64,000 nt of DNA from Sycobia sp. Sy_11 (taxonomy: Eukaryota; Arthropoda; Insecta; Hymenoptera; Epichrysomallidae). The notes beneath the pieces were generated by a model. That model made no database searches. It was given only the letters and a program-made list of their open reading frames with translations, and was not told where the DNA came from. Positions 6,628 to 40,470 of this stretch are shown here, piece after piece. Position 1 is the first letter of the stretch; each line of letters begins with the position of its first letter. The translations under genes and the position numbers were made by a program. The stretch lies in NCBI GenBank assembly GCA_018907035.1, contig JACCIC010000001.1:1651501-1715500 (forward strand), in the 5' to 3' direction.

Positions 6628-7514
6628 TTAAATTCTTGGAAATTCAGGATAAAAGATATCTTTGTTTGGATCACAAGCAAACATATTACGTCTCTGTTGC
6701 CGTGGAAAGCAGTTTACTAAATCATTATTGTCATTGAAGCATATCCCAACTTCCAAAAGGTATTGTGTCTCAGAATTCTAAAATAAAATATGTAAATCAA
6801 ATTGGAGTTGATGTTATCATTTTTTTAGTAATGCTAAATTTATTATACCGGAGGAGAAAAACAATTTATATGAAATCGTTTTCCTAAAATATGTCCAATA
6901 GTGTCGACAATATAATCATATGTGTGACTATGGCCTGGTTGAATACCATACTTGGGAAGTGTATCTCCAATATTTTGGCGAGAGAATAAGTGCAGAGCTG
7001 TACTGAAATAATAATAGTCCTGCGCCACAATACACGACCCAGTTGTATTGAATTCTTGTGCCCAAACTTCTTCATCTGCTACGTTTGGTTTTATACTTGG
7101 CCATATTAATCGTAAGACTTCTTTCATTTGTCCGTACATAATCATTCCTGTGTAAACTGATTTCTCTCCATAAATATTTGTACAATCGTCCATCTGCTGA
7201 CCAAATTCGTTAAAAGCCAAAAATTTATTTATGATCCAATCATCGTGATATTCCGTCCAATGGCCTGCTACATATTGCAAAAAATCAGCGTCGTTGGTGT
7301 TAATGTCTCGTTCATGTTGCGCAAAAAATGATGTGACGGGTGATTGTTGATATAAAGCTACTTGATGCCACTCATAGGATGTCCTGAAATACTCATACAA
7401 TATTGTGAACAGCATTGTTAATAAGTACAAGATACCATAGCATATTTTTATACATTACCCTGGAACTGAATGGCAGAAAGATATGAGGGACAATCCTATA
7501 AGATATTTTAACAT
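6628..7514 (-). CDS. Secreted RNase T2-like protein, catalytically dead (gene A)
   Basis: Three exons, minus strand: 7459-7514, 6849-7383 and 6628-6777, with GT-AG introns. Together they give 246 aa. The start MLKYLIGLSLISFCHSVPG is a signal peptide. The fold is RNase T2: the CAS I position reads WIINKFLAF (residues 68-76) where active enzymes have WTIHGLWP. LIWPSI follows, then CAS II reads WAQEFNTTGSC (126-136) where active enzymes have WxHEWxKHGTC. Then come YYFSTALHLF, a YGIQPG block, RFHINC, LLEVGICF, NCFP and a C-terminal ACDPN..FYPEFP that matches the T2 ending. Six mature cysteines fit T2 disulfides. All three catalytic histidine positions are changed (to N, Q and T); the CAS II Glu remains. 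The sequence N-T-T over the old Lys-His site is a possible N-glycosylation sequon. The frame is intact, so it is read as a pseudoenzyme, not a pseudogene. No cleaving activity is expected. Confidence 0.9.
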
Positions 7515-8400
7515 TTTAGAATAAATATCTTTTGATGCTCAATGATCTTAGCGTTACTTGCAAATATTAACGTTCCACCACTGCAATTGTTATTTCTTTT
7601 ACATTTAATAATGATATTCTCGACTATTATAATATGATTATAATATATATGTAAGAAGATTTAATTTAGTTCTTCTAATAAATAAAATGTATAGTTCGAA
7701 TACGTAGACGAATGAATTATTATTATCATGTATTTGCCAACAACCTATTTTTCAATATATTTAAATTAATTTTCATATCATGTCAATATGTATCAGGTGG
7801 AACGATATAATCTTCTGTGTATCAGGTGGCTTCAATGAATTTGGTAATAACAAGTGGAGGATATTATGTGAGGCCAATTCATATTTTTTCAAATAGAACT
7901 CTTTAAATAGATTTGAAAATTCATTATACAATTGAGCATTATTTGCAAATCAATTGGGATAGAAAATAAAGTACATTTTGGCTTTAAAAAATATTTAATA
8001 AAAAAAATTTTAATTATTACAATATTGAATGAGCACCGACTCATAGAAAAGCGGGAAAAAGAAAACCTTTCAACCCCCTGCTAATTAGTGTTATTTAAGA
8101 ATTATCTTGTCTCATAATAATTATTCTTTTTTTCTTAATTTATCTACAATAATAAGAATAGTGCGTTTAATTTTTTAATTTGAAGCGAACTCATATTTAT
8201 TAATTTTATCTAAAAACAGTCGACATAAGCACAATTAAAGAACTCAAATTGAATTTATATTTCTAAACTAGCATCCTTCATATCGATTTTGCTCGAGATA
8301 ATAATTTAACCAGTTTATTAAACTGTTATTAAATAATATCTAAGTAAAATTACTCAAAATGTGTAAATCTACATAGCTATAGATAATTTTATCATACGAT
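7515..8400. other. Upstream flank of gene A, duplicated at genes B and C
   Basis: Homologous to 14956-15472 plus 17541-17830 (gene B flank) and, for the proximal part, to 40471-40900 (gene C flank). Shared landmarks include GGTGGCTTCAAT near 7828 and GCACCGACTCATAG near 8033, against GAATCATAGG near 17560. The promoter must lie here, but I cannot place a TATA box or initiator with confidence. Confidence 0.7.
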
Positions 8401-9430
8401 AATAGAAATCGAATTCAATCAAACAAGTGAATAATCAAAGGAAAGTTAGATTTTTGTTTCAAACCTTGATAGTTCTGGTGCTGAGTAACTTCCTATTTAC
8501 AATATAATATGTTCCTGTGTTTTAGACTGATCTTATGTATATTTACTCGCAAAATGCAAATCTAAGGGTTTTTTGTTAAACAGGGTAGAAAACTTTTTAA
8601 ATGACAATCATTTAAACATTAGAAAACATTCAATATTTTATGCAGGACAAGTTTTTTCTAAAAATATTTTTAATTTTCGGAAGAAACGCTTCTAAGATTT
8701 GTCCGTCAAAAATGTATGCTGACTATTAACGATTTAGTACAGATCCAATTTTGTCACTCACCGAAGATCGACTTTGCAGTGTACTCCGTATTATAACTCA
8801 CATAAGATTCCGCTTCTCTGTACCAAAACCTTTATTTAATTTATCCTAGAGAGGAACTGATGATTATTATCTCCCAGCTCTACGTCTATATCTGAGACGT
8901 CTCTACGAGTATGGCGTTGACGAGATGTCTCCAATGGAGATTACAGCGAGCTGGCTACCTAAAGTGTCTTTTAAGATAATTAGCAAAGAAGCTAGGATGA
9001 TCGAGCTGGCTATATAAACCATGCAGAACCTCCTCCCTTATTATCATTAGGTAGTAATGGAATAATGAAAATCATAATAAGAAAAAGAATAGAAAAGGAA
9101 AATAGAAAATAAGAATCGATAAATGCAGTAGCCAGGAAACAAATAATGTTCACGATAATTTGCATGAAAAGAGAAAAGGACAGGAAACAGAAATAGTGAA
9201 AGTGTATGCGAGGAGTGTAGGCAATTACATCAAACAGGGCGAGCAAGCAATGTAAAGCGAAATGAAAAATGTGAAATGGGATATAAAAAGTGCTTAAGAA
9301 TAATATAAAGAAATGAGCAAGAAACAGAAGCAAAGTCAAGAAGAAAGGTAATAAGAAGTATAGGAGAATTAGCATAGAAAACAGAGAGACATAGCTGAGG
9401 GAACATGCAAAAGGTTCATGTTTATGGTTG
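8401..9430. other. Intergenic, no feature seen
   Basis: Long minus-strand reading frames around 9010-9600 are translations of A/G-rich low-complexity DNA and are not supported as a gene. Confidence 0.5.
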
Positions 9431-9431
9431 A

Positions 9432-9486
<55 letters not shown>
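9431..9486. repeat. (AG)n microsatellite
   Basis: About 27 uninterrupted AG units. Confidence 0.98.
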
Positions 9487-10303
9487 CATACACATAACTT
9501 CCACATGAGAGGTCGTATGCAGCTGAGTTATACAAACAAGAGGCGTAATGTACAAAATAAAATAAATGCAAAGCCAAGTATACACGGTGCGGCCCAGCAA
9601 CAGTTACTATGACAGCGAAAGCAGCAAACTCACACTTACTCGTATCTCTGACTCCAGAATAAGTAGCACACGAGACATGAGGAAACAACCAAAAGCAAAT
9701 GAACGAGGACTGAGCTCACGGTAATGAACGCTGAGTCGCCAAAGAAGTCAGGGAGAGCTGAAAAATACAGAAGAATAAGTATCGTGTAGAAAGAGAAGCT
9801 TTGTATAGAATTCAAGCAACAGGCGGTCATTCACATTATAGTATATACATATACTGCCCTTGCTAATTTCAATTTGGTATGTGGTTAGCGAATAGATTGC
9901 ACAACATTAGCCACGGATAATGTCAGTCCTGTTCGTACCTTGACGGTACAGACACCGTTGATTGGTAGATTTCGGAAAGAAGAATGATTATTGGCTGGTT
10001 AACTCGGGAAGAAGAAGGGGAAGACAAAGAAGACTTTAATAAAAATTGATAGATAGTCATGCATGCACGTGTGTAGAACTTCTATTTTTTCTTATCTTTT
10101 TCTCACGCGTTTTCCTGGTTTACGATTCTGAAGCGGCCAAACTAGTAGAGAAGATGTACGATAATTTTAGCCTTAGAAGAGGACGACATAGCGGACGATA
10201 GCAAGAAGAGTAGCTGACATTACGAGCAGGTGATTGGATTTCTTCACCATCATAGTTGTACCGGTAGGTGTTTGTAGGCGCCTTACATACTATTAAACAA
10301 TAA
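9487..10303. other. Intergenic of moderate GC, no gene seen
   Basis: Purine-rich and somewhat GC-richer than its surroundings; no supported ORF. Confidence 0.4.
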
Positions 10304-10638
10304 TGTAACACGGAAACGGGAAATGGCGGGATTGGCGGAAGTGGCTACGCGGCCAATACGGACAAGTCACCAAATTGTTATTGCAGGGGATTGTTAGGTA
10401 AGCAGATAGCCACATGGGAGGGATGAGAAGCCATGTCAGGAAGAAGAGGTCTTATTGTGGCTTATTGAATAAAATTGAACCTTAAGATACAGTGAAACCC
10501 TCTCTTTTTTACCTCCCCGCCACCATTCCTTTCATCCTGAATCTCTGCCTTGGAACGAGAGCAGTGATTCAACGAAAAGATGAGACTAGTTTCAATGAAG
10601 TTATGCACGGCGAATAGGTGCGAATCTGTAACGTGACA
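10304..10638 (+). mobile_element. Candidate LTR of a Ty3/gypsy-like retrotransposon
   Basis: Bounded by TGTAAC at the 5' end and GTGACA at the 3' end, with an AATAAA at 10468-10473. Two bases further on lies a tRNA-Lys-type primer-binding site. Length is 335 bp. The 5' boundary is inferred from the TG start only; no second LTR was found in the window and no target duplication can be shown. What follows the primer site is only about 80 bp of purine-rich leader-like DNA, so the element is truncated. Confidence 0.6.
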
Positions 10639-10640
10639 AA

Positions 10641-10656
10641 TGGCGCCCAACGTTGG
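10641..10656 (+). other. Primer-binding site matching tRNA-Lys(CUU) 3' end
   Basis: TGGCGCCCAACGTTGG. Its first 13 bases equal the complement of the usual metazoan tRNA-Lys(CUU) 3' terminus (TGGCGCCCAACGT), placed 2 bp after the candidate LTR end, as in gypsy-type elements. Confidence 0.65.
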
Positions 10657-11690
10657 ATTTTAACTCAGACGTGAATAAGGAGATGGGGAGACAAAAGGAG
10701 GGGCATAAATCGAAGCGTATATTATATGTAATTGAAAATGCGATTTATAATTTCAGAAGATACAATAAGAGATGATGTGTTGAGGATAAGAGGATAGAAC
10801 ACTGACCATTCTAGGAGTAATGAGAGAAAAAAGGAATGATATTTAATTTAAAATATAAACCAGTAACGTGTATCGTAAATTTTGGAAGTTTTAATGTTTC
10901 CTGTCCTCTCTTTCTTTTTTATCGTTCTTTCTTTCTTCCGTTTTTTTTCTATATATGGTGAAATCGTAGCCAACACTGTTCCAGGAGCTTCCTCGTTAAC
11001 ATGATCATCGAAATTATTGCCTGTGTCTATATTTCATCTTGAACATATAGGCCTGCACTCAGTTACATACCAATATTTTATCGAATTACCAAACTTATCT
11101 TACCAAATTTTTATTATGATTCACATTCTATATTATTCATTGTGATTTTTCAAATGGATAATGAAAAAATTCAAATGGATATTGATAATACTATTTAATA
11201 CATAAACCTCAATATCGGTAAATGATAATGGCTGTTTGATTTTTGTATATTCTCAGGCGCAAGACAGAAAATATTCTAAAAATTTTACGTCATGGACTTT
11301 ATTAACTACAAAAGTAGCTACCTATATCAATAAAGTTTTATATCCTAAGTTTTTTAATTGTTCTTGAAATAATCGTATGACTCTTTTGTTAACATTTGGC
11401 TCATTATTTTCTACAGCTAAAATACCATTTATAGATAAATTATGGAAATCTAATGCCATCAATAAGTACTTTAAGGTAATACTGCCATCCTCTTTCACTA
11501 TCAAATAAGTTATTAAATGTTAATTACAACTTTTATTTTATGAACAGGACCAATCATTCACTCTAATCTCTAAGTCCTTCTTATACTTTATGTTACTGGT
11601 TTCATCATATCGAGCATCAAGTGTATTAAGCTTCTGTAATTCACTTTAAAAAGCATTTTCTTAAAAAAGGCCTAATGCTTTTCTGTAATG
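10657..11690. other. AT-rich intergenic, no gene seen
   Basis: Only chance ORFs, such as 11322-11504. Nothing further was recognised. Confidence 0.5.
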
Positions 11691-11835
11691 CACTCTGTCA
11701 AAGAATAATATAACAAATAAATATGACAAAAATTATTGAAATGAAAATAAGATTCTGGAAAATTTATTAGGTGATTCGTGAGATGTCCATCGTGCTCCAG
11801 GTTCCCCGAAAACGCGTGCTACAACAGGATTAGTA

Positions 11836-12029
11836 AAGCACGCGTTTTGGAGTACACTTTACTCACGTTTCTGTTATAGAAAACGTACTTTTTATTGCTT
11901 CAGCGAACATAGATTCCAGATTGTTGCAATCCTGAAAATTATTATAAATGAACTTACACGTATTGTAGAACAAAATGGAAAAAGAATTTTACGAGGATAA
12001 ATTACAACTGATGGGAAAAACTGCAGTTG
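11836..12029 (+). repeat. Internal direct repeat, unit 1
   Basis: Begins AAGCACGCGTTTTGGAGT and ends AAAACTGCAGTTG; about 90% alike with unit 2. It contains TCACGTTTCTGTTATAG and CAGATTGTTGCAATCCTG. Confidence 0.9.
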
Positions 12030-12221
12030 AAGCACGCGTTTTCGAGTGCACTGTACTCACGTTTCTGTTATAGGGAACGTACTTTTCAATGCTTCAGCGG
12101 ACATACATTCCAGATTGTTGCAATCCTGAAAATTAATAAATGAACTTATATGTATTGTAGAGCAAGATGGAAAAAAAATTTTACGAGGATAAATGACAAC
12201 TGATGGGTAAAACTGTAGTTG
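12030..12221 (+). repeat. Internal direct repeat, unit 2
   Basis: Begins AAGCACGCGTTTTCGAGT and ends AAAACTGTAGTTG; directly abuts unit 1. Confidence 0.9.
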
Positions 12222-12370
12222 TATCACGCGCTTTCGGGGAACCTGGAACGCGATGGATATCTCGCGTGGTGTACTGTCATCGAATCAGCTAATAAATTTT
12301 CCAGGATCTTATTGTCATTTGAATAATTTTTGTCATATTGATCTGTTATACGATTCTCTGACAGAATGTG

Positions 12371-13676
12371 ATACGAGTGTACATAATTTTTGTAATTTTG
12401 CAAGCACTTTTAAATGATTTTATCGCATGCATTATACCAGTATACAAATATCTAATTATTATAAATTAAACAGTCGTGTATATAATTGTAATAATTTATA
12501 ACTTTTTCTGGAAAAAAATTCTGTAAAATTGAAAGAAATAAATTATATGTATATAGATATATCACTACCATACTTCTATACAACAACTTTCCTTCACCGT
12601 TATTGTATTTTAGTATTTTTGATTTATTTGTAATGAAAAATCTATAACAATTAGAAAAAGGTTTTTACAAATAATTTTTGGAGCTTTAGAACATTAATAT
12701 TATACATCAAATTGGCTGAATTAATACTGAAATAGTGAAAAGCATTAAAAACTTTATATATAAATGATAGAATACATGATAGTATATGAAACAATAGAGA
12801 GTTTATTAAAAATGATTTTAAACAAAATTTGGAGATCTACCGAAAATAATTTTTTTACATTCCATATGTTTTTGCTTTAAAACTACAATTATATGAGAAA
12901 AATTACAAATTAAAAAGTACTTGTATCATGTATCATCTGAGCAGCGGGGTAGATCCCTGACGTATCGATTGTAACTTGGGATGATTATAGTAGCTGAAAA
13001 CGCTTACTATTAATTGCGTTTTTCTCGATAATTATTAGCTTTAAAGGAAAAAATCGATAGAATATAAAAAATTTGTTTAATAGGATCTACAACTTTTGTT
13101 TGAACATGTTGTTTCTAAACTCAAAATTATGTTATAAAGCCTGGTTTTTATCAATTTTTGAACATTTTTACAAAGTTTGGATGCCTGGCGTTGCCACATC
13201 CAGATTAATTGACGCAGCGAACGATCACTACGCTTTAAAGAACATTGAAACAAAACATTTAAACTAATTTTCGGCCGAGGATAAATATATGACATAAAAA
13301 GGTCTCTAGCTCCCGGACTAAATAGACCAATTTAGATACTCCGACAGTAGTAGTAAAATTCTTAGATCATGCAGATAGAAATTTCCACGTACTTCAGAAT
13401 GTCAAGCACTGCAATCGAATATTCACAAGAAAAAAATAAATACTTAATATAATGTACTATTCCGTATTTCGACAATATCTATTTTATTGTTATATAGATG
13501 TATAATGTGTGTGTAATATATCGCTAGCGATACCATTAGCTTGGACTGGAATGGTACCCATTGTACCTATTTCTTGACTACTCTCCTCTTTTTATGGTTG
13601 TTATATTTATTTATCTACAGTATATTTATATATAGTTTATAGTTTTACTAGTTGCATTTCGGTTATAAAATTACTA
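12371..13676. other. AT-rich intergenic and 3' flank of gene B
   Basis: No gene or known repeat was recognised. Confidence 0.5.
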
Positions 13677-14955
13677 TTACATTCTTGGAAATTCAGGATA
13701 AAAGACCTCTAGGTTCGGATCACAAGCAAAGATAGTACGTTTCTGTTGTCGTGGAAAACAGTTTACTATATCATTGTCTCGATTAAAGCATATCCCAACT
13801 TCCAAAAGGTATTGACCCTCATAATTCTAAAATAAGTCATGTACAGCAAATTAAAGTCTATTTCAAATGTTTTAGAAATAGTTATTGCTACTGCATTTTA
13901 TTTACCCAAGGAGTTAGACAATTTATGTGAAATCGTTTTCCTAATATATGTCCAATAGTGTCCACAATATGGTTATATGTATAACTATGGCCTGGATGAA
14001 TACCATACTTGGGAAGTGTATCTCCAATATTTTGTCGAGAGAACAATTGCAGAGCTGTACCGAAATAATAATGCTCCCTCAAAGCAATGCATGATCCGGT
14101 GGTATTGAACTCTTGCGCCCAAACTTCTTCATCCGTTACATTTAGTTTTACGCTTGGCCATATCATCCGCAAAATTTTTTTGTGACGTGGATGAATCTTC
14201 GTTCCTGTATAAATCGGTTTAGTGCCATATTTATCTGTACAATCATCAATATGCTGACCATCTGCGTCAAAAGCGTAAAATTTATTTATAATCCAATCAT
14301 TTTGATATTTCGTCCAATGACCTGCTACATATTGCAAAAAATCAGTGTCGCTGGTGTTCACATCTCTTTTCTGTTGCGCGAAAAATGAAGTCACGGGCGA
14401 TTGTTGATATAAGGCTACTTGATGCCACTCATACGATATTCTGAAATATACTTACTCATTGTTTATTATATATGTATATATAATTTAAATACAGTAAATG
14501 CTAATACACCTATCTTCGATATTATAACTCTAATTTAAACTGTATTTACTCGATTACAATAACTCATTAAAACGAACAGAAACTTTTTAAAATTTTAAAA
14601 TTCTGTTGATAGAGTATACTTTATAACTGACAACAATTTAATTTTAATAATAACATACAATAGAATAATTTTATTTTAATTTCAAATTAGAATTAGATAA
14701 ATATAGAAAATTATGATAAACACAGCAGTAACGTTTACTTCCTAGGCATGATTTTTATAGGATCTCATGTCAACTTTTTCTAAAAATCAGACCTACTTCA
14801 AATAATTAAATAACTTATACATGATAAATATTAATTATTAGTTAGTTAGGAAGAAGTGGAATTATTAATCGATGGAAAATGCGATAGAATATACTTTACC
14901 CTGGAACTGAATGGCAGAAAGATATGAGAGACAATCCTATAAGATATGTTAACAT
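13677..14955 (-). CDS. Secreted RNase T2-like protein, catalytically dead (gene B)
   Basis: Exons on the minus strand are 14900-14955, 13906-14440 and 13677-13826: the same three lengths (56, 535 and 150 nt) and splice phases as gene A. They encode 246 aa. The signal peptide is MLTYLIGLSLISFCHSVPG. The CAS I position reads WIINKFYAF; CAS II reads WAQEFNTTGSC. The same six mature cysteines and the N-T-T sequon are kept, and the C-terminus is CDPNLEVFYPEFPRM. There is no frameshift or stop. It is very close to gene A throughout, including introns and upstream flank, so it is a recent duplicate. The start ATG is the only one placed before a signal peptide, and it aligns with genes A and C. Confidence 0.9.
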
Positions 14956-15472
14956 CTTTGAATAAATATCTTTTGATGCTCAATAAATTTAATGTAGCTA
15001 CCAGCTATTAATGTTCGACAACTAGAATTAGTAATTTTTTTATATTAAATAATTATATTGTCGATTATAATAAATGTTACCTACAAGATTTGATGTATTA
15101 GTTATCGCAGCAAAATAAATGTATATTTCATATACATAAAGCAATGAAACGAAATAAAGGTATGTTCATGTAGAAGATAACCTGTATTAACACACTTTTC
15201 GAATAGGTGATCTAATTTCACATTAAAGTAATTTTAAATGTAAATATTTATTAGGCGGAATGATATAATTTACTGTCTATGAGGTGGCTTCAATGTATTT
15301 TCTAATAACCAATTAGGGTATTATTATCAAGTTGATTTGTATGTTTTAAGCTAGAACTTTTTCAATAAATTTAAAAAACTTATCATACAATTTAACACTA
15401 TTTTAAAATAAACTTGGATTAAAATAAAACTATAATTTGTGTTTACAAAATATTTAATAAATTATTTTTGTC
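14956..15472. other. Upstream flank of gene B, first part
   Basis: Homologous to 7515-8020 beside gene A. The homology breaks at about 15471, where SINE copy S3 starts, and resumes at 17541. Confidence 0.75.
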
Positions 15473-15568
15473 GAGGCCTACGATGACTCAATCGCTAAAG
15501 CGAAAGACTAGTAACTTGGATATTCGAGTTTAAATTTCGGTCTCGGCCGATTGACACAAGCACCGCTA
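15473..15568 (+). repeat. tRNA-derived SINE, copy S3
   Basis: GAGGCCTACGATGACTCAAT, then CGCTAAAGCGAAAGACTAGT, a degenerate B-box-like GAGTTTAAATTTCGG and CGGCCGATTGACACAAGCAC. The shared AAAGCGACG..AAATAACATA block is found downstream at 16313-16336, about 740 bp away, against about 45 bp after S1. Confidence 0.75.
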
Positions 15569-15574
15569 TTTTGC

Positions 15575-15820
15575 GGACTTATAATCAGATAGGTCGCATT
15601 CTAGCTTTTCGAAAATATTGAGAAGTTCAAAATGAGGTGACGTATTCGGCTTGCCACCTCGGGCTTTTCGACCGTCAGGCTACGCAAGAGTTTGGGCTGC
15701 GATCTGTGTGTGGGGCTTATCGCTCGAAATTTGACCCCGAGTCGAGGGTAATGTAATTTATAAAAGACGCTGTATGAGAACGCGCTAAATTATTGTTTTC
15801 TGGTCTCTGATCAGGTCAAA
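15575..15820 (+). repeat. Unclassified interspersed repeat, about 240 bp, plus-strand copy
   Basis: Matches the reverse complement of 42365-42600. Shared blocks: ATTCTAGCTTT, TTGAGAAGTTC, TTCGGCTTGCCACCTC, GAGTTTGGGCT, GGCTTATCGCTCGAAA, TTTATAAAAG and a GGTCTCTG/GATCTCTG end. The TATAAAA inside, followed about 40 bp later by the shared end, would fit a promoter of an LTR or similar element, but neither boundary shows a clear TG...CA with target duplication. Confidence 0.75.
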
Positions 15821-16347
15821 TTTGTTATTAAAAAATTTATTCAAGTTACTAGTTTTGTTTTATTTAAATAAATTCAAAGTCTCAGCTTCATTGTTTGTTA
15901 TAAATATATTTAAAATGATGTCAAAATTAAATGCATTGAAATGTTGCGAGCGGTTTATATAATTACACCTAATTATTAACGTGTATAGTTATTAATTAAT
16001 TTATTAACTATTTTATTAATTATTCATTTGTTCATCGCTATGGAAATATTTCACTTATAAATAGCAAAAAGAAAAAGATCGTAAAAACATCTCCATAGCA
16101 ACCAAGGCGAATTAAACTGTTTGACAACGCTTGAGCGAGGCACTCTTTCTGATTAGCCTCCGAAATATCAAGGTGTTAATACTTGTAATTTATTATTTGT
16201 GTTTGATTTTTAAAATATTAAAAAAGTTATTACTTATTGTTGAACAATTTATTTACAATCCCAATACAATATTAGTTTATTATGGAATAACCGGTATTTG
16301 AAAGATTAATTAAAGCGACGATAAATAACATAAAAAATAACTTACTT
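15821..16347. other. Intergenic inserted between gene B flank halves
   Basis: Absent at the matching place beside gene A. No gene is seen. Confidence 0.5.
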
Positions 16348-17540
16348 TTGGGTGTACATGCAATTTTTTAGCGTTTGTCTAAAGATGGCGTCACCGGTAG
16401 ATTCCGGGCAGAAATTTCAGCCCTCCTGTGTTATATTTGTAGTTTCCGTATCTCAAGAACTTTGCAGTTTTGTACTTGAGTATTTCTTTCAGTGTTGTTT
16501 ATTTTATCGAGCAAAATCGTGGCAAGTTTGCAACTAAATAAACGTCATTTGCGGGAAGCACTGCTTCTATTCTTGGAAATGAGGAAAAGTGCGGCCTATT
16601 GTTTCCGTCCCGAAAGTTGTGGGTGGAATGTTCTTGTAAATTGACGTGCTGCGAGTGGTTCAAGCGGTTCAAAAATTGTAATTTTGAAGTTGAAGACAAA
16701 AATCGCTTCGGAAAACCAAAAATTTTGTAATCGAGTAATTAGACGCTTTTCTGGATGAGGATCCGTGTCACATTCAAGAACTTACTGCATCATTGGGCGT
16801 CATGGAACAACCCATTTCCTTGCGCCTAGAAACATTGGGATTCATTTCAAAGGTTGGAAACTGGATACCATACCAATTGAAGCCGAGAAACGTCGAACAG
16901 CGATTTTGCATGTTCAAAATGTTGCTGTAGCGGTATAAAAATAAATCATTTTTACATCGTATTGTCATTGGTCATAAAAAATGGATTTATTATGATAAAC
17001 CTAAACGCAGAAATCGTATATAATGTCCGGTGACCTGCCTAATCGACATCAAAACGAAATATTCACGTAAAAAACGGTGTTGTATACTAGAATTTACTTA
17101 TTCATTTGAAGAGAGCATTACAGAAAACATGGCCAGAATATGAAACCAGGCACGAGTCCGTAATTTTCATCACGATAACGCTCGGCCACATGTTGCGGCT
17201 TCGATAAAAACTATTTGGTGAATAGTGGATGAGAAATTCTGCTTTATCCGCCTTACAGTCAAGACTTGACACCATCTGACTGCAATTTATTTCGATCAAT
17301 GCAAATGTTTTTACGGGAATACGCTTCAGTTCAGCAGAGGAAATCAAAAACTGGTTTGATACGTTCTGGGACTCGAAAGGGGAGAAATCTTTTTAGTCCG
17401 CAATTCATAGAGTGAAAGAAAGATGGGAAAAACTTATAGCTTCTGATGAACGATATTTTGAATTAAGGATTGGTAACCATGTTTTCATAATAAAACCTCG
17501 CGTTGAGGAAAAATCACTGGTAACTTACTTTTACACCCAA
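16348..17540 (+). mobile_element. Decayed mariner element M5, sister of M3
   Basis: Left end TTGGGTGTACATG and right end (reverse complement) TTGGGTGTAAAAGTAAG. TA follows the right end (17541-17542), but TT precedes the left. The plus strand holds the same transposase remnants as M3: the CGTCATTTGCGGGAAGC start, WFKRFKNCNFEVEDK, PCHIQELTASLGVMEQ, GNWIPYQLKPR, HRIVIGHKKWIYYDKPKRRN (first catalytic region, Asp lost), HHDNARPHVAAS, DLTPSDCNLF and ERWEKLIASDERYFE. Many stops and shifts are present. It keeps the 125 bp that M3 lacks. The right end abuts duplicated gene-B flank exactly. Confidence 0.9.
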
Positions 17541-29283: not shown

Positions 29284-29289
29284 TAACTT

Positions 29290-29440
29290 ACGTGCGAAGC
29301 CGCAGGGTTGCTTCGCAATCGTTATGTCGTACGACTAGGTAGATGCAAATCTACCTGTGACCGTTATAGACCTCGTGGAATTTAATTCCTTATAAAGGTC
29401 GCCTACGCACGATGACTGTAACTCGTCGTGGTCGTTAGAC
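29290..29440 (+). ncRNA. Possible structured RNA or foldback cluster (unassigned)
   Basis: Moderate-GC island in about 80% AT DNA with five potential hairpins. GCGAAGC/GCTTCGC is at 29294-29316. AGGTAGAT/ATCTACCT at 29337-29356 is a perfect 8-bp stem closed by GCAA, a GNRA tetraloop. GACCT/AGGTC at 29369-29400 contains GGAAT/ATTCC. CACGATGA/TCGTCGTG (one G-T) is at 29408-29430. GTGCG (29292) could also pair with CGCAC (29406) to close the whole, as an alternative to the first hairpin. I do not recognise the family, and the strand is a guess. It may instead be a DNA foldback element. Confidence 0.35.
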
Positions 29441-31179
29441 AACAATGAGTGCACTAACATATATTGAATATTTTTTTTAATAAATGAAATGCAGTAATTT
29501 TAGGATTATATAATTTTATCTGAAAATTAAAAAAAATGAAAGAAAAAGCAAATGAAATTTTAAAGCTCGTATCAACTGTTAAAAAAAGAAGTTTTATATT
29601 TTTAAATCATATATAAATAAATGAAATTAAATATTTTAAAACCATCTGTTTTAAAAAACAGAAGAAATTTAAATTGATTATTAACAGAAGGATTAAATTG
29701 AGATTTAATTTAAAAGATGATCAAACATCTTCATTTGGCATTCGTTGTGTCAATAGAGACAATAATAAACAACGATCAGATATTACTTCGCCAGCTGGAA
29801 AGAGAGCTGCTGGCAGATTGAAATTAGCCTTCGAGCGCGAGCCTCATTTTTACTATTGTCATGTATTACTAATTAAATTGAGTTCAAAAGTAACTTTCCT
29901 TAGTATTTATTTATACACCTTAACTCCTATGCAGAACAATACCAAAAAGGAATTTGAAAACATTTTTCCTGAAAAATTTTTTTCTACCGATCTTTTTGAA
30001 ATCGGCTTTTAATAGATAACAATTTTAAATTATTCAGGTTATGTATTATGAATCTTCGAAATCTTACAATTATGATTAATACAGAAATTTATATTTTTTT
30101 ATTCAAAAAATGTTTTAAAGAAGTAATTCATATATAATATCTAAGAATTTAATAATAGCATCTTGAGAAGGATCATAACAATTTTATGTGCTCGAATTGT
30201 CGATGTTGAAATAAAAAACTATTATTTCTGTAATTTTTGTTTTATGCACTTCATTGGATCTTAACATATTAATTTATAAAATATAAATTATGACTATTAA
30301 CCGATACTTTGTTAACTATAAAAATAAACGCATATACATTTAAATTTAAATGACAATATACTCGAAACTGTGGATACATTCTTGAATCGTGTAAAAGATT
30401 TGTTTACAATTTCAATTCATTTTCCAACTTTATTTTTTTCTAAATTTCAAATTCGATGTTGAAAAAAGCAAAAAAAAATTTTACATAAATATAAAATTCT
30501 TGCAAAAATTTTAAAATTTTAGAAAAATCGCAGTATAAAAAAATTTCAGAGATTTGATATTATATTAATCGAATAATTACATATCATCGACTTAAAAAAA
30601 TGCACTAAAAAGTATGAAATAATTCACAAAATCTGTAAAAATGAATAATCAGTGTAAAAAATAGACCAATATTCTAAATAAAAATTATTATAAATAAATT
30701 GTAATTTTATAAAATTGCGCTATGAAATAACACAATTTATATCAAACTATTAAAATTATTGTAAAATTATCGATTTCCAGATTATATTGATTACTTATTA
30801 ATTACTTTTAATAAATAATCTAAATCGAGTTTAAGACTTCCACAAATCTCTTTACAAAGTCGACCATTACAGAAAAATTCACTTTCGTTTGAAAAAATTT
30901 TATTTTAATTGGTCCAACAGTTTACAAAGTTATCGCTAAGCAAATATAAAAAAAATAAAAAAGAATGTGTCGATTTGAGTACGTCTGCATTTTTCGAAAT
31001 CGGTAAAAATAGTAAATAAACTAAAAATGTGTTACTGTGATCAAATTAAAACACGTATTTCCAATTTAAATAATTTCCTTTCTGAAAGTTACAAGTATTG
31101 TGTATGCCATTTATATCAACTTTCACGATGTCAAAATATTCATTAGTGTTTGAGAGGTGATAAAAGTGAATATGTCAAT
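29441..31179. other. AT-rich intergenic, no gene seen
   Basis: A less AT-rich patch at 29720-29880 translates without stops, but no ATG start or splice context supports a gene. Confidence 0.45.
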
Positions 31180-31580
31180 TTTTACTATGTCTGCATTTAT
31201 TGAACAACGAAGTTACATAAATTTTGTATTTTGGAAGCGAATTTCGACTGCGGAAACTTTGAGGATGTTGCGAAAAGCCTTTGAGGACCAGACTCTATTA
31301 TCAAAAAATGTAAGTGTTGGTAACGTATAGGGTAACGTGGTAACGTGTATGTCAAGTGTTACAAAAAATATTGGCCGCGAGAATTTTAAGAAGAATATGG
31401 TGTCAAATCGGTCAAAAACATCGCATAGTGATGATTACGTCAAGAAGCTCAAAGAACTTGTGCTACAAAATTATCAATTGATAATTAGAGACCTTGCTTA
31501 TTCTGTGGGAATTTCATTTGAATCAGCTCAAACCCTTGTGACCGGTGTTTTAGATGTCAGACGAATCAGTTAAATCCAAG
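31180..31580 (+). pseudogene. Mariner transposase N-terminal fragment
   Basis: The plus strand reads MSAFIEQRSYINFVFWKR, ISTAETLRMLRKAFEDQTL, then after shifts DDYVKKLKELVLQNYQLIIR and DLAYSVGISFESAQTLVT. That is the two helix-turn-helix parts of the mariner DNA-binding domain. The catalytic domain is missing. Confidence 0.8.
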
Positions 31581-32018
31581 ACTTTCGTCGCACTTGGGTT
31601 TTAGATTAATGCCAAGATTTTCGGGTACTTGGCCTAAATAATCTAGATTATTATCTTGTTAAACTTTAAAAAATCTAAAATGCCACTAAAACTAAACGCT
31701 ATTTTAACAACAAACGAAACGTAATTTAATACAAAAATAATTTGAATAAAATATTAGTGAATATTAAAGCACGTAGAAAGAATTCGATTTATATAAATCG
31801 AACACGTTTTAATTTTAATATTATGGCTTATGGATCTAATCTCCTACCCCATTTGTCCTCTGCTCGCTCTCGAGCCTTCAGCTTTTTTTTTATTTTTTCC
31901 ACCATCATATTTAGGCGGCTCGAGATTACGTACATATGATGACGCGTCGTTGCTAATGCAACTAGTTACTACTCACTACGTTTTACGCTCAATGCAACAA
32001 CCTCTAATGTAGTGAAGA
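31581..32018. other. Intergenic; 20-bp palindrome near 31780
   Basis: TTCGATTTATATAAATCGAA is a perfect palindrome. Nothing else is recognised. Confidence 0.5.
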
Positions 32019-32720
32019 TTAAACGACGCAAAAAGTTTGTCTGGTGATATTGAATATGGACTCATGGTACGTTCCCCGAAGCGGATTTTTGAGTTTCGGA
32101 AAGAGGAAAAAGTCAGAGGGAGCCAAATCTGGAAAATACGGTAGCTGAGCGATGACTTTCATTTTGTGTTTGGCCAAAAAATCAGACACAATCATGCTGG
32201 AATGTGCCGGCGCATTATCGTGGTGAAAAAAACCTTGAATTGTCTGCCCACAAATTCGGTCGTTCACGACGAAGTGCTTCAGGTAGACACCTCAAAACGG
32301 TCAAGTAGTACTCTTTATGGACCGTTTGACCTCCTGAAATAAATTCATGGTGAACCACCCTATAGTGATCGAAAAAACCGATGAGCATCACCTTGATTTT
32401 CGCTGGATAGGCGACTTGCATGGAGCAAGTTTTCTACGACTTCACGACCTTCACTGAAAGCTTTGTGTCACTCAAATACTTGCATTCCCGATAAAGTAGA
32501 CTTGCCAAAACACTTCTGCAAGATTTTCAACGATTCCTCAGCCGTAATTCCATTGGAAACACAAAATTTCAAGCAAACTAGTTGACCAACTTTTTCTCTC
32601 ATTGTCAATGTCGCCAGATAAACTATTTGCGTAGTAAAAAAACAGATGACAAACACAAACAAATGGAGATATGGTGCTAAAATTTCAGCGGACATCAAGG
32701 AAGGTTGTACCAATGTAGGA
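32019..32720 (-). pseudogene. Mariner transposase with internal deletion
   Basis: Minus strand: REKVGQLVCLKFCVSNGITA, EESLKILQKCFGKSTLSGMQ, VFE then a stop and HKAFSEGREVVENLL. A deletion follows, then KIKVMLIGFFDHYRVVHHEF, GGQTVHKEYYLTVLRCLPEA, FFHHDNAPAHSS (second Asp) and FPDLAPSDFFLFPKLKNPLR (third Asp). The first Asp region is missing. At least two frame changes are present. Confidence 0.85.
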
Positions 32721-34189
32721 AAAAAAATTTTACCGATTCAGTTTACGTGCGGAGTTTAAATGAAACAGTCCGGGTCCAATTTGATCATATGGTATATTAA
32801 TTCGACTTCTTTTAGTCCAAACATGATGAGAATGTTAACGTAAGTGATGAAATTGTTTTGTTAGTACATTTAATTGGCTAATTAAGACAATAAGAAATTC
32901 ACAATGTGAAGACGTTGTTCTATGATTTGCAGCGTATGAGAAATAAAACATGATATTAAAATAACTGAATGACGAAAATTAAAAATGTTCTTGAAGAATT
33001 TGAGCAAAGGTTATAAACGAAAAAACTTTCCAATGGTCTCAAATTAAAATGTTTAGAATCTATCGATGATTCAAAAATTTGATTTTCTTTATATAGTACG
33101 TTAAGCAATATTAACTTATTGAATTTGTTCAGCATTAAGATTTCAGGAACTCCACAGTGTTACTCCTCTTAATGATGTGGAAGATCATGGTATTAAATAT
33201 ATGAATTTATAAATTATCCTTGCCAGTTCATTATTGGATTGTTCTTTTATGTTCTTATGGCAGGGTCGATTATTTAGTAATAAAATAATTGCTAGTATAA
33301 TTAAATTTATTAGAACAAAATAAGTACAAGGATACAAATTAATATAAATGCTTATTATACATCAAGGTGTTAGGACGTGGTCAACTAACGATCTCACTCG
33401 CACAATGCTCACACACGAATGTATTCACACGCACTCAGTACATCCGAAACTTACATGTTTACACATGCAACGCACATCTAGTCTCGACGCGTACGGCCCT
33501 GCAGGTTGGCGCATGCAATGAGCAATAGGTTTGCACTTGCATCAGTGCAGCGCTTAACATTACCATCTTTATACCTGGACCTTAATTATACTCTCCGACA
33601 TACAATTTATATACAGGTAGTATATACACACCTGGACTACATCAACAGTTCTTCACAGGTATTTATAAAGTGCATTAGATATTACAGTAGCTTAACTTCG
33701 AAATCGTTATAATATCATGATTGTCTATTATAAACAATCGTATCAGTTTATTTATTTTTATCCTGAGATATTTCTTATTCGCTTTGCTCATAAGGTTAGT
33801 GAAATAGCATCCGTACCAGTAACCAAGTATATTATTGTATAAGCTGTATTGTGCAAACTTCATGTAGATATAAGCAGGAAGAAAAGCGACACTTTAGTCA
33901 TTGCTTTTCACATAATAAAGTACGTAATTTAGGCCGGGATATGATAAAATAAACATTCAAAAGAATGGACAATGATCCACTTAATGTATATTGTATAGGC
34001 AAACGTGCTGTATAAATAAACAGAGGTGATACGGTCAACTGTAGTATTTATTTTTTTGAATTGATGAAAACTCGCCTCGTACTAGACTAACAATCTAAAG
34101 GTAACCTAATCGCTGCGTGTGCAGAAAATGTTGCTGCTACAACCCCTACTAGCTCCCCACGTTCGATCGGTAAGCGTCAATCTCTTCCT
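32721..34189. other. Intergenic, moderately GC patch at 33370-33660
   Basis: A TGTTAGG...CATCAACA interval (33368-33646) looks faintly LTR-like, but nothing supports it further. No gene is seen. Confidence 0.4.
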
Positions 34190-35082
34190 GGTTTCCACGC
34201 TTAGTCTCGTTCCAATCCACGGAATAGTCTCTTGGATCTTTTTGAGTACTACGTCCCTCTATACTCCTCCCTATTTCTGGCTCCCCCATGGCCAATCAAT
34301 CACAGTTCAATTATATTGGCGTTGCAAGGGAAGTATATCACTTATCTATCATGGGGTAGAATGAACGGCCAGAGCGTAGCAGCACCGCTACTTATTTTCG
34401 CGATCAAACAAGTACCCGTATTGCCATCTCTTTCAATTGACAGCTTTGTGGCCGTTATTATTACGCCCGTCGTTGTTGCAGAAGATTTTTCCTTCCATCA
34501 CGCAAACGCACGCTTTTGCGTATTATAATCTTACTTGTCCTATGGTAAGACACATTTCCCGTTGAGATTAACGTGATCAATGTTTATATAGTTTGATGGA
34601 TTATTCGGGTTCTCCCGTCCCTTTCCCTATTATTTCTTTTCGGATCAGTTGATTGAATCAATTGATTTATTTTTATCATGATATATTTCTCATTCTCTTC
34701 GTTTGGAAGATTAATAAATTAACATCCATACTTTTTTCGAAGCATATTATTGCGCATCAGTTACACATAAAAAAAAAGAAAAAATTTCAGAAAATTCGAG
34801 TTTTAGTTGTTAAAGTCGAACCTATAAATCTTTTATTATTTCTTTATATGCATTTAAAAATATTTTTCAATACAAAATATATTTTAATAGGAATTTTTTG
34901 AAAAACGTGAGTTTGCATGCGCAATTAAAGATTAACAGTTATTGTATGTAACTGACTGGATTTATATATAAAACATAAGTCTCTTTATTTCCAGAAAACA
35001 AAATTTTTAAAAACTGAGCATACGCATTTTGAGTGGTCTTTAATTTTATTCCATAGTATTAAATAAAAAAAAAAAAACAAAA
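34190..35082. other. Duplicated segment, copy 2, upstream part
   Basis: 34190-34600 parallels 24090-24730 of copy 1, probably including a trace of the same non-LTR ORF1. It serves as the upstream region of the small secreted-protein gene; no promoter element could be fixed. Confidence 0.55.
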
Positions 35083-36225
35083 ATGTTTCGTCTTCACACT
35101 ACAATTACATTTTTCATATTAATATTTTCATCTATATTATCCACCGTAATAAGTGTGTGCTACTGCCCATTTAGTGTAAGTATTATTTTTCAATAGTATA
35201 TTTAATTTAACAATACATGAAATCCATGGTATTCTTTAATTAAACTTTTAATCATTAGTCTATAATCACAGGTTCTTTAATTTTTTCACCTTTCATCTAA
35301 TTATCCATATATAATAATTACAAATCTAAGTTTTATATGTAAACATTGATAACTTATATGTAAAGCATTAATAAATTATATAGTATATGTGTGAAAATAG
35401 ACAAATTTTTAACTTATTCTAGGTTAAGGGTAGTCGTAATTCCTTGAGAAACGTAAATCACATGTTAGGTATTTCATTATTTTATCAATGGTTTTTTCCA
35501 ATTTTAATCTATGAAACATTAACTAATTAAAATTTTTTAAAGAGTAATGCGGAATATTAAAAATCATCAATTTACTTATTTCATTTAATTTACTTTCCTT
35601 AACTTAAATTCACTTAGACTTGAATGGTAAGGTGACACCCAGTCGGTTAATAATTATTTAAATTATTTCTCAATAACTTAGACCTTAATTGTATTGAATA
35701 GGTCTAGACAGGTTTTTAAACTAATTTAGTCGAGTACTATATATTAAATAATAAAATAATCTACGAATAAAATTATAGTTATTCTTTTCATTATATTTTT
35801 CAAGGGATTTTTACAATTTTATTTGTATTATACTTTTTAGGATGTCCAAGCCGATCTAGTGCTGAAGGAGTACAAAGATAACATTTTCCAGGTTAGATTT
35901 GTGCCTATGCAGTATCTATTTTCCATATTTTATCAAATTTTTATATAGGTTAGCTAAACTTGAAATAATTTATTTTTAGAACGGCATTAAGCTTAATAAT
36001 TATACTCAATCTTGCAGCAGCAACAATTTTGCAGTGAATTCATTCCGGTGTAGAGTAAGATATTGTCAATAATGAACATTATTTATTTTAAAAATAATAA
36101 TAAAACAATCCTATAAGCCTATAACTTTTAATGAATTTCAGATGATTTATTGGTATCTACTAAATAACAACGAGCAGAAGTTGAGAGATGGTAAACTAGC
36201 ACTTCTTAATTGCTTTACAGCATAA
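35083..36225 (+). CDS. Small secreted cysteine-containing protein, 100 aa, four exons
   Basis: Exons: 35083-35175, 35841-35891, 35980-36054 and 36142-36225, all in phase 0, with donors GTAAGT, GTTAGA and GTAAGA and acceptors TTTTTAG, TTTTTAG and TTTCAG. Exon 1 encodes a hydrophobic signal peptide (MFRLHTTITFFILIFSSILS) ending near VCYCPFS. The mature part of about 76 aa has five cysteines (two in CYC, then QSC, FRC, LNC), a charged LVLKEYKDN stretch and the ending LALLNCFTA. I recognise no family. Support comes from consistent splice phases, the signal peptide and the decayed duplicate near 24970. It could be a toxin-like, antimicrobial or binding peptide, but nothing in the sequence says which. 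No transcript evidence is available. Confidence 0.6.
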
Positions 36226-36631
36226 TCATAATTATAGTTGAATTTAATGACAAATAGAAAAAATTGTATGGACAAATAATTATGTCTAAAACTACATCTG
36301 TATAACTTTTGGCAACGTCTTTATATTTTAGATTATTTTGAAAATTTTTGTCGACGGAATTTTAGCGCCACTAATGACAAATTATTGTCTCAGATCTTTA
36401 AAATTCGAAATGGATAATAAAATATAACAGTATAGAATTTTTAACAATTCTTATTTCTATTTAAAAATAAGAATCAAACTACCCATTTTACACTTTAACA
36501 GTCCAGCCGATAAAAGTAAATTTTTTATTGCTTTAATATATTTAAAAATATATGTTTAAAAAATTATATTACTAACATAATACTGGAGAACTAATTTTTA
36601 GCAATACATGAAACATCGAATTATATGTTTA
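36226..36631. other. 3' flank of the small secreted gene, AT-rich
   Basis: Aligned loosely with 25190-25410. No further feature. Confidence 0.5.
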
Positions 36632-36941
36632 AAAAATAAATACATATTTTTTTCTATTCAAATGGATCTTAGTTTGCTTCATTTTATATTAAAACTGCAT
36701 GTATTTCAATTTTGTCCTTTGTACGCACATTTTATACTAATTTTTTTCAATTTTAATTATTTCCACCATGTCAAACATAGATCGTACGATCCTGAAATAT
36801 AGTTTTGTCTAGTTTTATTCTTCACATATCAAAGATTTATATTTTTAGTGATATTTATTTAAAATTTGTAATTTTATTTAAAAAAATTTTGAATATCTGA
36901 ACTAAAACTTCCATCGCATTGTAAATAACTATGTAAATGCC
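36632..36941 (+). repeat. Long inverted repeat, left arm (copy 2)
   Basis: Direct homolog of 25411-25735 and inverted partner of 37443-37630 (CAATTTTGTCCTTTGTA; GCACATTTTNTACTAATTTT; CCTGAAATATAGTTTTG). Confidence 0.8.
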
Positions 36942-37020
36942 TTATCTGTATATATAAGATATTGTACTAAATGTATTAACTATTCTATTAATATATTTTG
37001 TACTATATCTATTATATGTA

Positions 37021-37442
37021 ATAAAACAAGATTGAATTTTGGAACCGATGATTTTTTTGTAGAAAAAAATATTTATGAAAAGGATTTCTTTATTCAAGCC
37101 TGTCTCGATATAAACTGTTTATGTTATTAAACTTCTTTTCCTGTACTGTTTACAGTTGACAGTTACAGAATAATAATTTATCAGTAATGAATAATGATTT
37201 TATCGATACCTTGCAAAAGGAGGAAATTCGAAATTCAATCATAAATTTTTACGTGGAATAGGTTGCAGATGCATATTATAACCATGTTCCATCGTAAATT
37301 ATCTATTTGGAATTTCTTTATTCAGAATTTATTTGACAAATATGCATAGGTTTGTAATAATATATTTTAATGATTATAATTGTGCACATTTTTCATACAT
37401 GTATTTATATTACAAACAACTGTAAAAGTATAGGAAAAGAAG
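37021..37442. other. Spacer of the inverted-repeat element, copy 2
   Basis: Aligns to 27155-27600, including the GGAACCGAT.ATTTTTTTGTAG left end of the 522-bp MITE at 37041. It then jumps to what is about 27896 in copy 1, a deletion of about 295 bp. Confidence 0.7.
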
Positions 37443-37630
37443 ATATAAAAAACTATATTTCAGGGTAGTACAACACATGCTTAACATAGTGTAAATAATT
37501 AAAATGGAAAAAATTAGTAGAAAATGTGCATACAAAGGACAAAATTGAAATATAGCTCTTAAATACAATTTTAGTAAAAAATGAAGGAAACCAAGGGCCA
37601 ATTGAATATGAAAAATACGTATTTATTTTC
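37443..37630 (-). repeat. Long inverted repeat, truncated right arm (copy 2)
   Basis: Homolog of 27900-28091 and inverted partner of 36632-36830. Confidence 0.8.
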
Positions 37631-37670
37631 TTAATACATTAAATAGATTTTTTATGTATTGATCCCTTTA

Positions 37671-37708
37671 ATAATGTATGATTAATATTTCATTTAATCA
37701 TACATTAT
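37671..37708. repeat. Perfect 15-bp hairpin
   Basis: ATAATGTATGATTAA and TTAATCATACATTAT with an 8-nt spacer. Confidence 0.8.
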
Positions 37709-38088
37709 GTATAGCTGCGATATTTGTCATGAATATGTTACAATCCTCAACACTGGAGGTTGACGAGCTATGAGACACGTTGATGATATTTTTATCGCAA
37801 TAAGGGAACTATTTCTGGCCATTTTGACAGATACAACACAGTACTGATGACTTTTCGGTTAGGTACTTGTTATACTGATAAACTACAAATATTTTTTTTT
37901 TCCTTTTCTTATTCTAACACCTACAAAAATTTTTTTGATTTAAAGAATCTGTTCTTAACAATTACAAAAAAAGAAATGAGTTCGTACTTACGTCGGGGGA
38001 ATGTGTGTTCGGGTATGATTAATAAAAGCTCTAGGAATTACCTTAATTATTACTTAATATATTTATTTAATACTAATGGCATAAAAAA

Positions 38089-38109
38089 CCTCCACTCGGT
38101 GAGTGGAGG
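38089..38109. repeat. 9-bp GC-rich hairpin with 3-nt loop
   Basis: CCTCCACTC, GGT, GAGTGGAGG, flanked by A-runs and by GGC / GCC further out. Confidence 0.8.
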
Positions 38110-38119
38110 AAAAAGCCCA

Positions 38120-38971
38120 AATAAACATTAAACAATGTTCAAATCAGAAGCTTAAAGTCTATTAGTAACGTCAAACAATCAACACGCGTGTACTCGAGTA
38201 CTGCTAGATCTTGAGCGCTCTTACCACGTAATTCCATACAACATACGGAGTACTCCTACGTAAAGGTTGAGTGGCCGTCAGCACCAGCACTCACGTTGCT
38301 CGCAGAGGAACCTTCGGGGAAGAGATGCTCCGCGTTTACCTCCTACTTTGCGCTGCGGCCCCGACGTCTCGGGCACGGTTTTCTCCTAACCGCAACGGCA
38401 GCCAACGGGCATAAATGCTACCGGGAGCACTCTCGGATATTCGTGTCGAACGAATATCCACAAGAGCAATGTCCCTCGTCCCGCTGATGCGCCAATCTAC
38501 ACACTAAAAACTCCTACACACAATCTACACGCAATCCACACATATAAAACGCAAAGTCACGTACAACACATTCCAAAACACTCTACACGCGGATATAAAT
38601 TATAAACTAAAATATACACTTAGAAAACTACAACGACTACCAACGAGGAGCGAAATCTAATCGAATGATTCGGCTGAAGGTCGAAAGCGAAGTGCCAGTT
38701 TTTGTTTATACTTGACATTTCGGAAAAGCGACGCGACGAGGGAGGGGAGAAATCCATCTGGGCTTCAGACAGGGTTCATCCTCAGGAAACCTCTCTCTCA
38801 CACTATAAAGCAATTTTAAACAGAGCGTCCCTTTACGGAAAAGTCGGGGATTGCACATGCCCAACATCGGGGCGGCCGTTCACAGTACAAAAGATTTATA
38901 CCGGTTATATTGGTAAAATTGTACGCTCTACCGTCCAAAACTATTAATGAGCCAATAGATTCATTGAAGTA

Positions 38972-38974
<3 letters not shown>
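38120..38974. other. GC-rich island, function unknown
   Basis: 38200-38900 is clearly GC-richer than its surroundings, with many CpG (for example near 38330-38400). ORFs here are short and unsupported. It could be a promoter region or an old mobile element. Confidence 0.4.

Positions 38975-39027
<53 letters not shown>
38975..39027. repeat. (AG)n microsatellite
   Basis: About 25 AG units, followed by more AG-rich DNA to 39075. Confidence 0.97.
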
Positions 39028-39030
<3 letters not shown>

Positions 39031-39226
39031 GACAGCGAAAAAGCGAGACAGGTAGAGAGAGCGAGAGGAGAGGGGCAACGAGCCTGCCTGATCCCTTGCA
39101 GATGCATGCTCGTTGTCGATGCGCTGCAGCTGTTCGCGTAGCCTGAACAGAATCCTTTTTTATCTTTTTGTATTGAAACCAACCGCTGCACATTAATGTA
39201 AATGTTAAAAATATTCTGTTATAAAT

Positions 39227-40470
39227 TTACAATAAATTGTTTGGCAATGCAGGATACAATATTTCTTTTTTTGGGTCACAAGCATAAATACTAGATTCTG
39301 GTTGTTGTGGAAAGCAGTTTACTAGTTCATAATTTTGATTAAGACATATTTCAGCTTCTAAAAGGTATTGTTTCTCAGTATCCTAAAATAAGATATTTCA
39401 AGTAAATAAGAGTGGAACGTTTTAAATTTAAGAATTAATTATTGCTTTTGTATTATACCTCAGGTGTTAGACATCTTATGTGAAATCGTTTTTTTAAGGT
39501 AAATGCAATAGAATTGACGATATGATCATATGTGTAACTACGACCTGGATGAATATCGTGATGGGAAAGTATAGTTCCTATATTACGGGCATTTAACACT
39601 TGTTGAGCTAGATCGAAATAATAAAAGCTCAATGGGGTAATGCAAAAACCGCTTGTGTTGAATTCTTTGATCCAAAGTTGTTCATCTCCTACATTTAGTT
39701 TTACACTGGGCCACAATTTTTTTAATTCCTCATGTTGTTTTACATTCAACCAAAATCTATTAAAATATGGTGGTTTTCCATTACTCTTTGTACAATTGTC
39801 AATATGCTGACCATCTATATTAAAAGCCCAAAATTTATTTATTATCCAACGTTCATGGTATTTTCTCCAATGGTCTGCTACATATTGCAAAAAATCAGTG
39901 TCGCTGGTATTCACGTCTCGTTGCTGTTCAGCGAAAAATGAAGTTACGGCCGAACGTTCAAATAATGATGCTTGATACCAGTACATTGATATTCTGAAAC
40001 GTAGTTATTCATTGATTAGCCCAATAAATATATTTCTGTATTCGTTTTCATTTCAAAGAAGATTAAATTAAATGTTGCAGTATACTTCAAATGTCTCAGT
40101 ATTTATTATATTTCATTGCAGGTACAAATATAAATATATTAATAATATCAGTAGGAAGCTAGTATTTAAAGAAAATAGAATAATTTTATTTTAATAAAAT
40201 CACGTCAACATCGAAAATAGTTGTAAAAATAATAGTTGTAAATTTTGTATTCGAACCATGAGTTTTTAATAGCATAAGGTATCAAACTTTTTAAAAAGTA
40301 AGACTTAAATATACTAAATGACTGATATTTGATAAATATCGCAATATTAGGTAACTATAAAGAGGTCGAATTATATATCGGTACGAAATGTCATAGAATA
40401 TTTTAATACTTTACCCTGGCACCGAATAGCAGTAGGATATAAGAGAGAATATTATAAAATATTTCAACAT
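39227..40470 (-). CDS. Secreted RNase T2-like protein, catalytically dead (gene C)
   Basis: Exons on the minus strand are 40415-40470, 39459-39993 and 39227-39382 (56, 535 and 156 nt), coding for 248 aa. The signal peptide is MLKYFIIFSLISYCYSVPG. The CAS I position reads WIINKFWAF; CAS II reads WIKEFNTSGFC, so the histidines are N, K and S here. The Glu and the sequon (now N-T-S) are kept, as are the six mature cysteines, the KLWPS block, HDIHPG, RFHIRC and CDPKKEILYP. It is clearly the most diverged of the three paralogs but keeps frame, splice sites and phases. Loss of the histidines therefore predates all three copies. About 25 kb separates it from gene B. Confidence 0.9.

Follow-up and report, generated by a model that had tools for sequence, protein, structure and literature searches.

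Three RNase T2-fold genes of Sycobia sp. Sy_11 with replaced catalytic residues: probable pseudo-RNases within a large insect T2 family

What keeps ribonuclease-like genes intact once the residues of catalysis have been replaced? This question is raised by three related genes, designated A, B and C, on a stretch of 64,000 nucleotides from Sycobia sp. Sy_11 (Insecta, Hymenoptera, Epichrysomallidae; assembly GCA_018907035.1, contig JACCIC010000001.1, positions 1,651,501 to 1,715,500), referred to here as the window, whose numbering is used for all features within it. A preliminary description had proposed that the three genes encode proteins of the RNase T2 fold that lost every catalytic histidine and were retained in a secreted, non-enzymatic role, such as binding or signalling. 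The analysis presented here supports such a role as the best reading, given a strong T2 match and dN/dS ratios (omega) well below 1. A, B and C are very probably pseudoenzymes, as judged from their sequences, and we consider it fairly probable that they represent secreted T2-fold pseudo-RNases kept for binding.

The proposed fold was confirmed by a profile search, in which the proteins matched Pfam PF00445 (Ribonuclease_T2) with scores of 72.1 (A; E-value 8e-20), 76.1 (B; 5e-21) and 69.7 bits (C; 5e-19), i.e. about 70-76 bits compared with a curated cut-off of 26. Six cysteines located past the N-terminal stretch (residues 86, 136, 193, 210, 220 and 232) are in register and occupy columns that are invariant across A, B, C and RNase MC1; we take them to be paired in disulfide bonds. 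A structure prediction, which had been suggested as a check, yielded a T2 fold for exon 2 of gene B, the part of the protein that this check covers. The input of the model was an alignment of T2 proteins, and it is thus not independent of them. Its first well-modelled strand comprises residues 53-61. A visual comparison with other family members, e.g. that of locus L005, suggests that the true first strand may instead lie at about residues 25-37, and because of this doubt the N-terminal part of the model was not used for any inference. An F1/T1-type RNase fold was absent among the structure matches listed, which does not amount to its exclusion. A protein database that includes eukaryotes (coverage of ants and wasps not established) yielded no relative when searched with B (E≤0.001) or with A, B and C together (E≤1); with MC1 added, the same database gave at least 58 plant, fungal and other matches. 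A scan of IMG/VR revealed no relatives of A, B or C, and no match was obtained in Rfam at gathering scores.

Alignment with RNase MC1 located both former conserved active-site (CAS) motifs, all on the minus strand. The former CAS I reads WIINKFLAF in A (residues 68-76; positions 7212-7238), WIINKFYAF in B (14269-14295) and WIINKFWAF in C (39822-39848), giving the consensus WIINKF[L/Y/W]AF. The former CAS II reads WAQEFNTTGSC in A (residues 126-136; 7032-7064) and in B (14089-14121), and WIKEFNTSGFC in C (39642-39674), with the consensus [A/I][Q/K]EFNT[T/S]G[S/F]C. TIHGLWP of RNase MC1 is therefore represented by IINKF[L/Y/W]A, and HEWTKHGTC by [Q/K]EFNT[T/S]G[S/F]C. In this alignment three histidines are replaced (by N71, Q/K128 and T/S133) and a lysine by T132, while Glu129 is retained; we presume, from the known family layout, that these histidine, lysine and glutamate positions are the catalytic ones. 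The claimed loss of every catalytic histidine is borne out, and the catalytic lysine has been lost as well. Replacement of the last catalytic histidine by threonine (A and B) or serine (C) gives each protein a complete N-x-[S/T] sequon at N131.

The three genes are located on the minus strand and all of their introns are of the GT-AG type. They encode spliced products of 246 (A), 246 (B) and 248 aa (C) and share an exon plan of 56 nt, 535 nt and 150-156 nt with intron phases 2 and then 0, exon 2 being exactly 535 nt long in all three. The splice phases, exon 2 length and six mature cysteines described earlier are hence reproduced by GT-AG splicing and alignment. Exon 1, encoding a hydrophobic N-terminus, is located at positions 7459-7514 (A), 14900-14955 (B) and 40415-40470 (C). 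Exon 2, assigned by splicing and the Pfam match (and, for B, by the structure model), contains most of the T2 domain (6849-7383, 13906-14440 and 39459-39993, respectively), and is followed by exon 3 (6628-6777, 13677-13826 and 39227-39382). The hydrophobic stretch of all three proteins, inspected by eye and with a hydropathy script, constitutes a putative signal peptide. Protein identity amounts to 76% (A-B), 52% (A-C) and 56% (B-C), and tblastn at E≤1 found no further T2 copies in the window. Outside exons 2 and 3, the DNA likeness of each pair is confined to one block of ~520-770 bp (66-71% identity), comprised of exon 1 and its upstream flank, besides which there are two matches of ~95 bp. 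Since likeness is limited to this short block around the genes, each of them was duplicated as a small unit.

Relatives of B, picked by their likeness to it, were identified on contigs C113, C459 and C69 (53, 46 and 44% identity to B; loci L049-L051). They carry WI[I/V]N[K/R]F, with N71 as in A, B and C, and the histidine-free CAS II sequences EFNTTGSC, EFITSGSC and AYNTSGSC. In a tree of 80 rows, constructed by a quick method, these relatives and A, B and C form one clade (SH-aLRT support 100). Its sister group (support 94) consists of five rows from loci L030 and L031 of contig C60, which have kept HGLWP in CAS I and have E[F/Y]NVHG in CAS II, and which look like a possible intermediate on the way to the histidine-free clade. 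The minimum number of state changes on the tree is three for the CAS I histidine, four for the first CAS II histidine and two for the last one. As reconstructed from these sequences, a single ancestral loss accounts for the dead motifs of A, B and C. The argument of the preliminary description that three intact dead copies speak for retention is qualified by this: the frames are intact and omega is below 1, but with one ancestral loss the three genes are not independent retentions.

N71, F73, T132 and H60-W61 are among the residues that are fixed in all six clade members but seldom found elsewhere. Genome-wide, 40 matches were obtained for the pattern W-I-[I/V]-N-[K/R]-F (27 in the reversed control), nine of the 40 falling within the T2 places described below (four on C1, the contig of the window, three on C113 and one each on C69 and C459). 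An exact DNA pattern for INKFxAF gave 52 genome matches (71 in the reversed control), and at known T2 places it was found only in A, B and C. A second clade lacking the CAS I histidine (replaced by S or N) is formed by L047:4940-5575, L047:991-1626 and L046; one of its members (L047:4940-5575; SAAKY) is independently without all three histidines.

The replaced active-site residues are under purifying selection. Pairwise maximum-likelihood omega was 0.285 (A-B), 0.462 (A-C) and 0.436 (B-C) at dS values of 0.50-0.77, and omega=1 was rejected in all three pairs, so that the dN/dS check proposed earlier gave ratios well below 1. For the six clade copies omega was 0.447 overall, 0.170 in CAS I, 0.275 in CAS II and 0.201 in residues 33-61, the CAS I value being significantly lower than that of the rest (0.467; p 4e-4). 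With the three window copies alone, omega of CAS I and CAS II was not significantly under that of the rest (p 0.14 and 0.21). Across the family, 16 disjoint pairs, one of them saturated, had a median omega of 0.28; omega was significantly lower than 1 in 13 pairs and significantly higher in none.

The most variable part of the proteins is the stretch between CAS I and CAS II (residues 88-106; variability scan and omega), encoded on the minus strand at positions 7122-7178 (A), 14179-14235 (B) and 39732-39788 (C). Permutation of the scan gave p 0.0002 for sites differing in all three proteins and p 0.016 for A-B.

We also searched the whole genome (621 Mb, 472 contigs), using the PF00445 profile and exon 2 of gene B as queries. 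The profile gave at least 150 scored matches, every one above the cut-off (the matches listed do not include A, B and C), and the exon 2 query gave at least 150 matches at E≤8.1e-17. Merging both sets yielded at least 273 T2 exon places, distributed over 56 contigs; for 227 of these, another place lies no more than 50 kb away. One broken copy is counted twice in the total of 273, which is a lower bound. The T2 family of this genome thus numbers about 270 places or more, mostly arrayed, and its members commonly have an altered active site. The cluster of A, B and C itself extends past the window, with nine listed copies within ~210 kb (C1:1482324-1691492).

A total of 298 kb in 48 loci, together with three exons and the window, was read in detail. 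The read loci and the window contain 75 distinct T2 open reading frames (ORFs), of which one is a cut duplicate at a locus end, leaving 74. All three histidines are kept in six of these, the first CAS II histidine in seven, and all three are lost in four, namely A, B, C and L047:4940-5575 of the other clade; substitutions of the CAS II histidines include F, Y, L, I and T. The read ORFs represent 70 of the 150 places listed with Pfam, comprising the top 28 together with those situated in dense arrays, and are consequently biased towards intact motifs. A simple script found a hydrophobic exon upstream, as in A, B and C, for 35 of the 74 copies, compared with 11 in the reversed control. The codon pattern W..HG[L/F]WP occurs 98 times genome-wide (0 in the reversed control). 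An intact pattern is present at 92 of the 273 places (89 of the 150 Pfam-listed and 16 of the 150 listed with the gene B query) and at six further places beyond them; its absence is not proof of a lost histidine, because any change in the motif breaks the pattern. Near two T2 copies of L045 there is an ORF of 349 aa (8503-9549, minus strand) without a T2 match. The genome also contains 135 matches to the odorant-receptor domain 7tm_6, many of them arrayed; as 7tm_6 is an insect-restricted family, these matches identify the genome as that of an insect. One such array, on C113 (~1835335-1974704), stops ~10 kb from the histidine-free copy C113:1974171.

How might such proteins act? The hydrophobic N-terminal exon would direct secretion, and the former cleft would now be fixed as a surface for binding or a structural one, perhaps with an N-glycan attached at N131. 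Which partner each copy binds may be determined by the fast-evolving stretch that separates the two motifs; binding with a specificity set by this loop is, on the sequences, slightly short of an even prospect. The likeliest setting would be that of secreted binding or effector-type proteins, locally duplicated under conflict with changing partners, although an effector or venom-type use is a tentative suggestion.

Several observations weigh against binding as outlined here. The sequon is gone in one of the six clade copies (L050, EFITSG), and a sequon adjacent to a cysteine may go unused. In the fast-evolving stretch omega was 1.67 for three copies and 1.15 for six, neither significantly above 1 (likelihood-ratio statistics 3.7 and 0.7), so relaxed constraint fits equally well; moreover, residues 88-106 were chosen post hoc, with the alignment already seen. 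The T2 model was derived from a T2 alignment, and from A, B and C alone modelling failed (predicted local distance difference test score 36.7). Finally, two of the nine copies of the C1 cluster are damaged: C1:1572340 has a stop within the match, and C1:1628648/1628905 is a single copy split in two, with a stop in one of the parts.

Other explanations were considered. The dead copies could regulate active T2 paralogs by binding their substrate or partners or by pairing with them, and copies with all three histidines do exist in the same genome (six of the 74 read); there is, however, no sign of pairing, and the A/B/C cluster is not on C98, the contig of the canonical-like L001 and L002, which leaves this explanation improbable. 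We give similarly little credence to an altered catalysis, in which further histidines (there are 9-12 per protein) or the retained Glu129 support RNA cleavage or another reaction. The strong constraint on the replaced motifs would suit it, but no histidine position is retained in either motif, the lysine is lost too, and the glutamate is missing in one of the six clade copies (L051, AYNTSG). No more convincing is a role as secreted storage or bulk proteins, with the T2 fold as a stable store of amino acids, as in CalsepRRP, the bindweed RNase-related protein (1jy5), which is inactive and of storage type: a former active site more constrained than the rest is needless for a mere store, and the copies have diverged (44-75% identity) rather than being kept alike. 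Pseudogene decay, by which A, B and C would be duplicates without function whose frames are merely still unbroken, was rejected as very improbable, for despite the two damaged neighbours and stops in 38 of the 150 Pfam rows listed (some from a match overrunning the exon end), omega is below 1 (0.24-0.46, omega=1 rejected), the replaced motifs are constrained, 147 of the 150 rows listed with the gene B query have no internal stop, and the splice sites, the intron phases and the length of exon 2 are preserved at the dS values given above.

The sole other long coding ORF of the window (50584-52443, minus strand; 619 aa) contains ABC transporter and ABC2 membrane domains and encodes an ABCG-type half transporter. 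Transposase ORFs, presumably of the mariner type, are present at 1547-2608 (minus strand) as two overlapping pieces, and a near-identical protein occurs within T2 arrays on C232 and C248 (L038:3249-4274 and L042:7360-8211).

If the copies are as we read them, they range from canonical through attenuated to triple-histidine-less forms under purifying selection, and a path from enzyme to non-enzyme would be traceable in one genome. The family makes non-catalytic action of T2 proteins directly testable, and if its members are effectors or recognition factors, insects would have a large fold family of the effector type. On the analogy with the RALPH effectors, one may speculate, with considerable reserve, that the T2 fold was recruited as an insect repertoire of hundreds of secreted proteins whose active sites are often degenerate, the A/B/C clade having a fixed non-catalytic surface, a glycan-capable CAS II and a neighbouring loop diversifying for changing partners.

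In the open-licence PMC literature we recognised no report of an insect T2 expansion of this size, nor of a replaced and fixed active site with a graded series of copies in one genome. The term "ribonuclease" is absent from the available portion of a gall-wasp effector paper (PMC6855507). According to the available portions of other papers, most insects, including seven ants, have one T2 gene with a housekeeping role, and Nasonia has eight (Ambrosio et al. 2014, PMC4136927); the RNASET2 family is expanded in Cotesia vestalis (PMC6873472); and parasitoid venom contains ribonuclease Oy-like proteins (PMC7930282). Given the reports on Nasonia, flatworms (see below) and C. vestalis, neither inactive T2 paralogs nor T2 duplications in insects are without precedent.

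Compared with canonical animal RNases T2 (human RNASET2, Drosophila RNase X25), the genes described here differ in the replacement of three histidines and the lysine, the fast-evolving stretch and the number of copies. CalsepRRP is a single plant protein, whereas here a large insect family is involved. Plant S-RNases, unlike A, B and C, are active enzymes with their histidines. They share the T2 fold and, at the HVa/HVb site between the two CAS motifs, a variable region (PMC9762611, in part). The closest likeness among insects is to the array on Nasonia chromosome 3, where tandem T2 copies have the CAS II histidine changed to tyrosine; as far as the consulted part of that paper describes it, the array contains seven copies (six full-length and a pseudogene) with a CAS II substitution only (PMC4136927), while here there are at least 270 places and one clade without any catalytic histidine. 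The same source describes natural flatworm T2 paralogs lacking the CAS I histidine, for which loss of activity was predicted; these belong to another phylum and have single substitutions, unlike the present clade, in which the motif set was rebuilt and fixed (PMC4136927). The RALPH effectors of powdery mildew are comparable at most functionally, as multiplied, inactive RNase-like proteins that are secreted, as A, B and C may be; in the available text they are fungal proteins with an F1/T1-type fold, a group to which A, B and C probably do not belong (PMC7857584).

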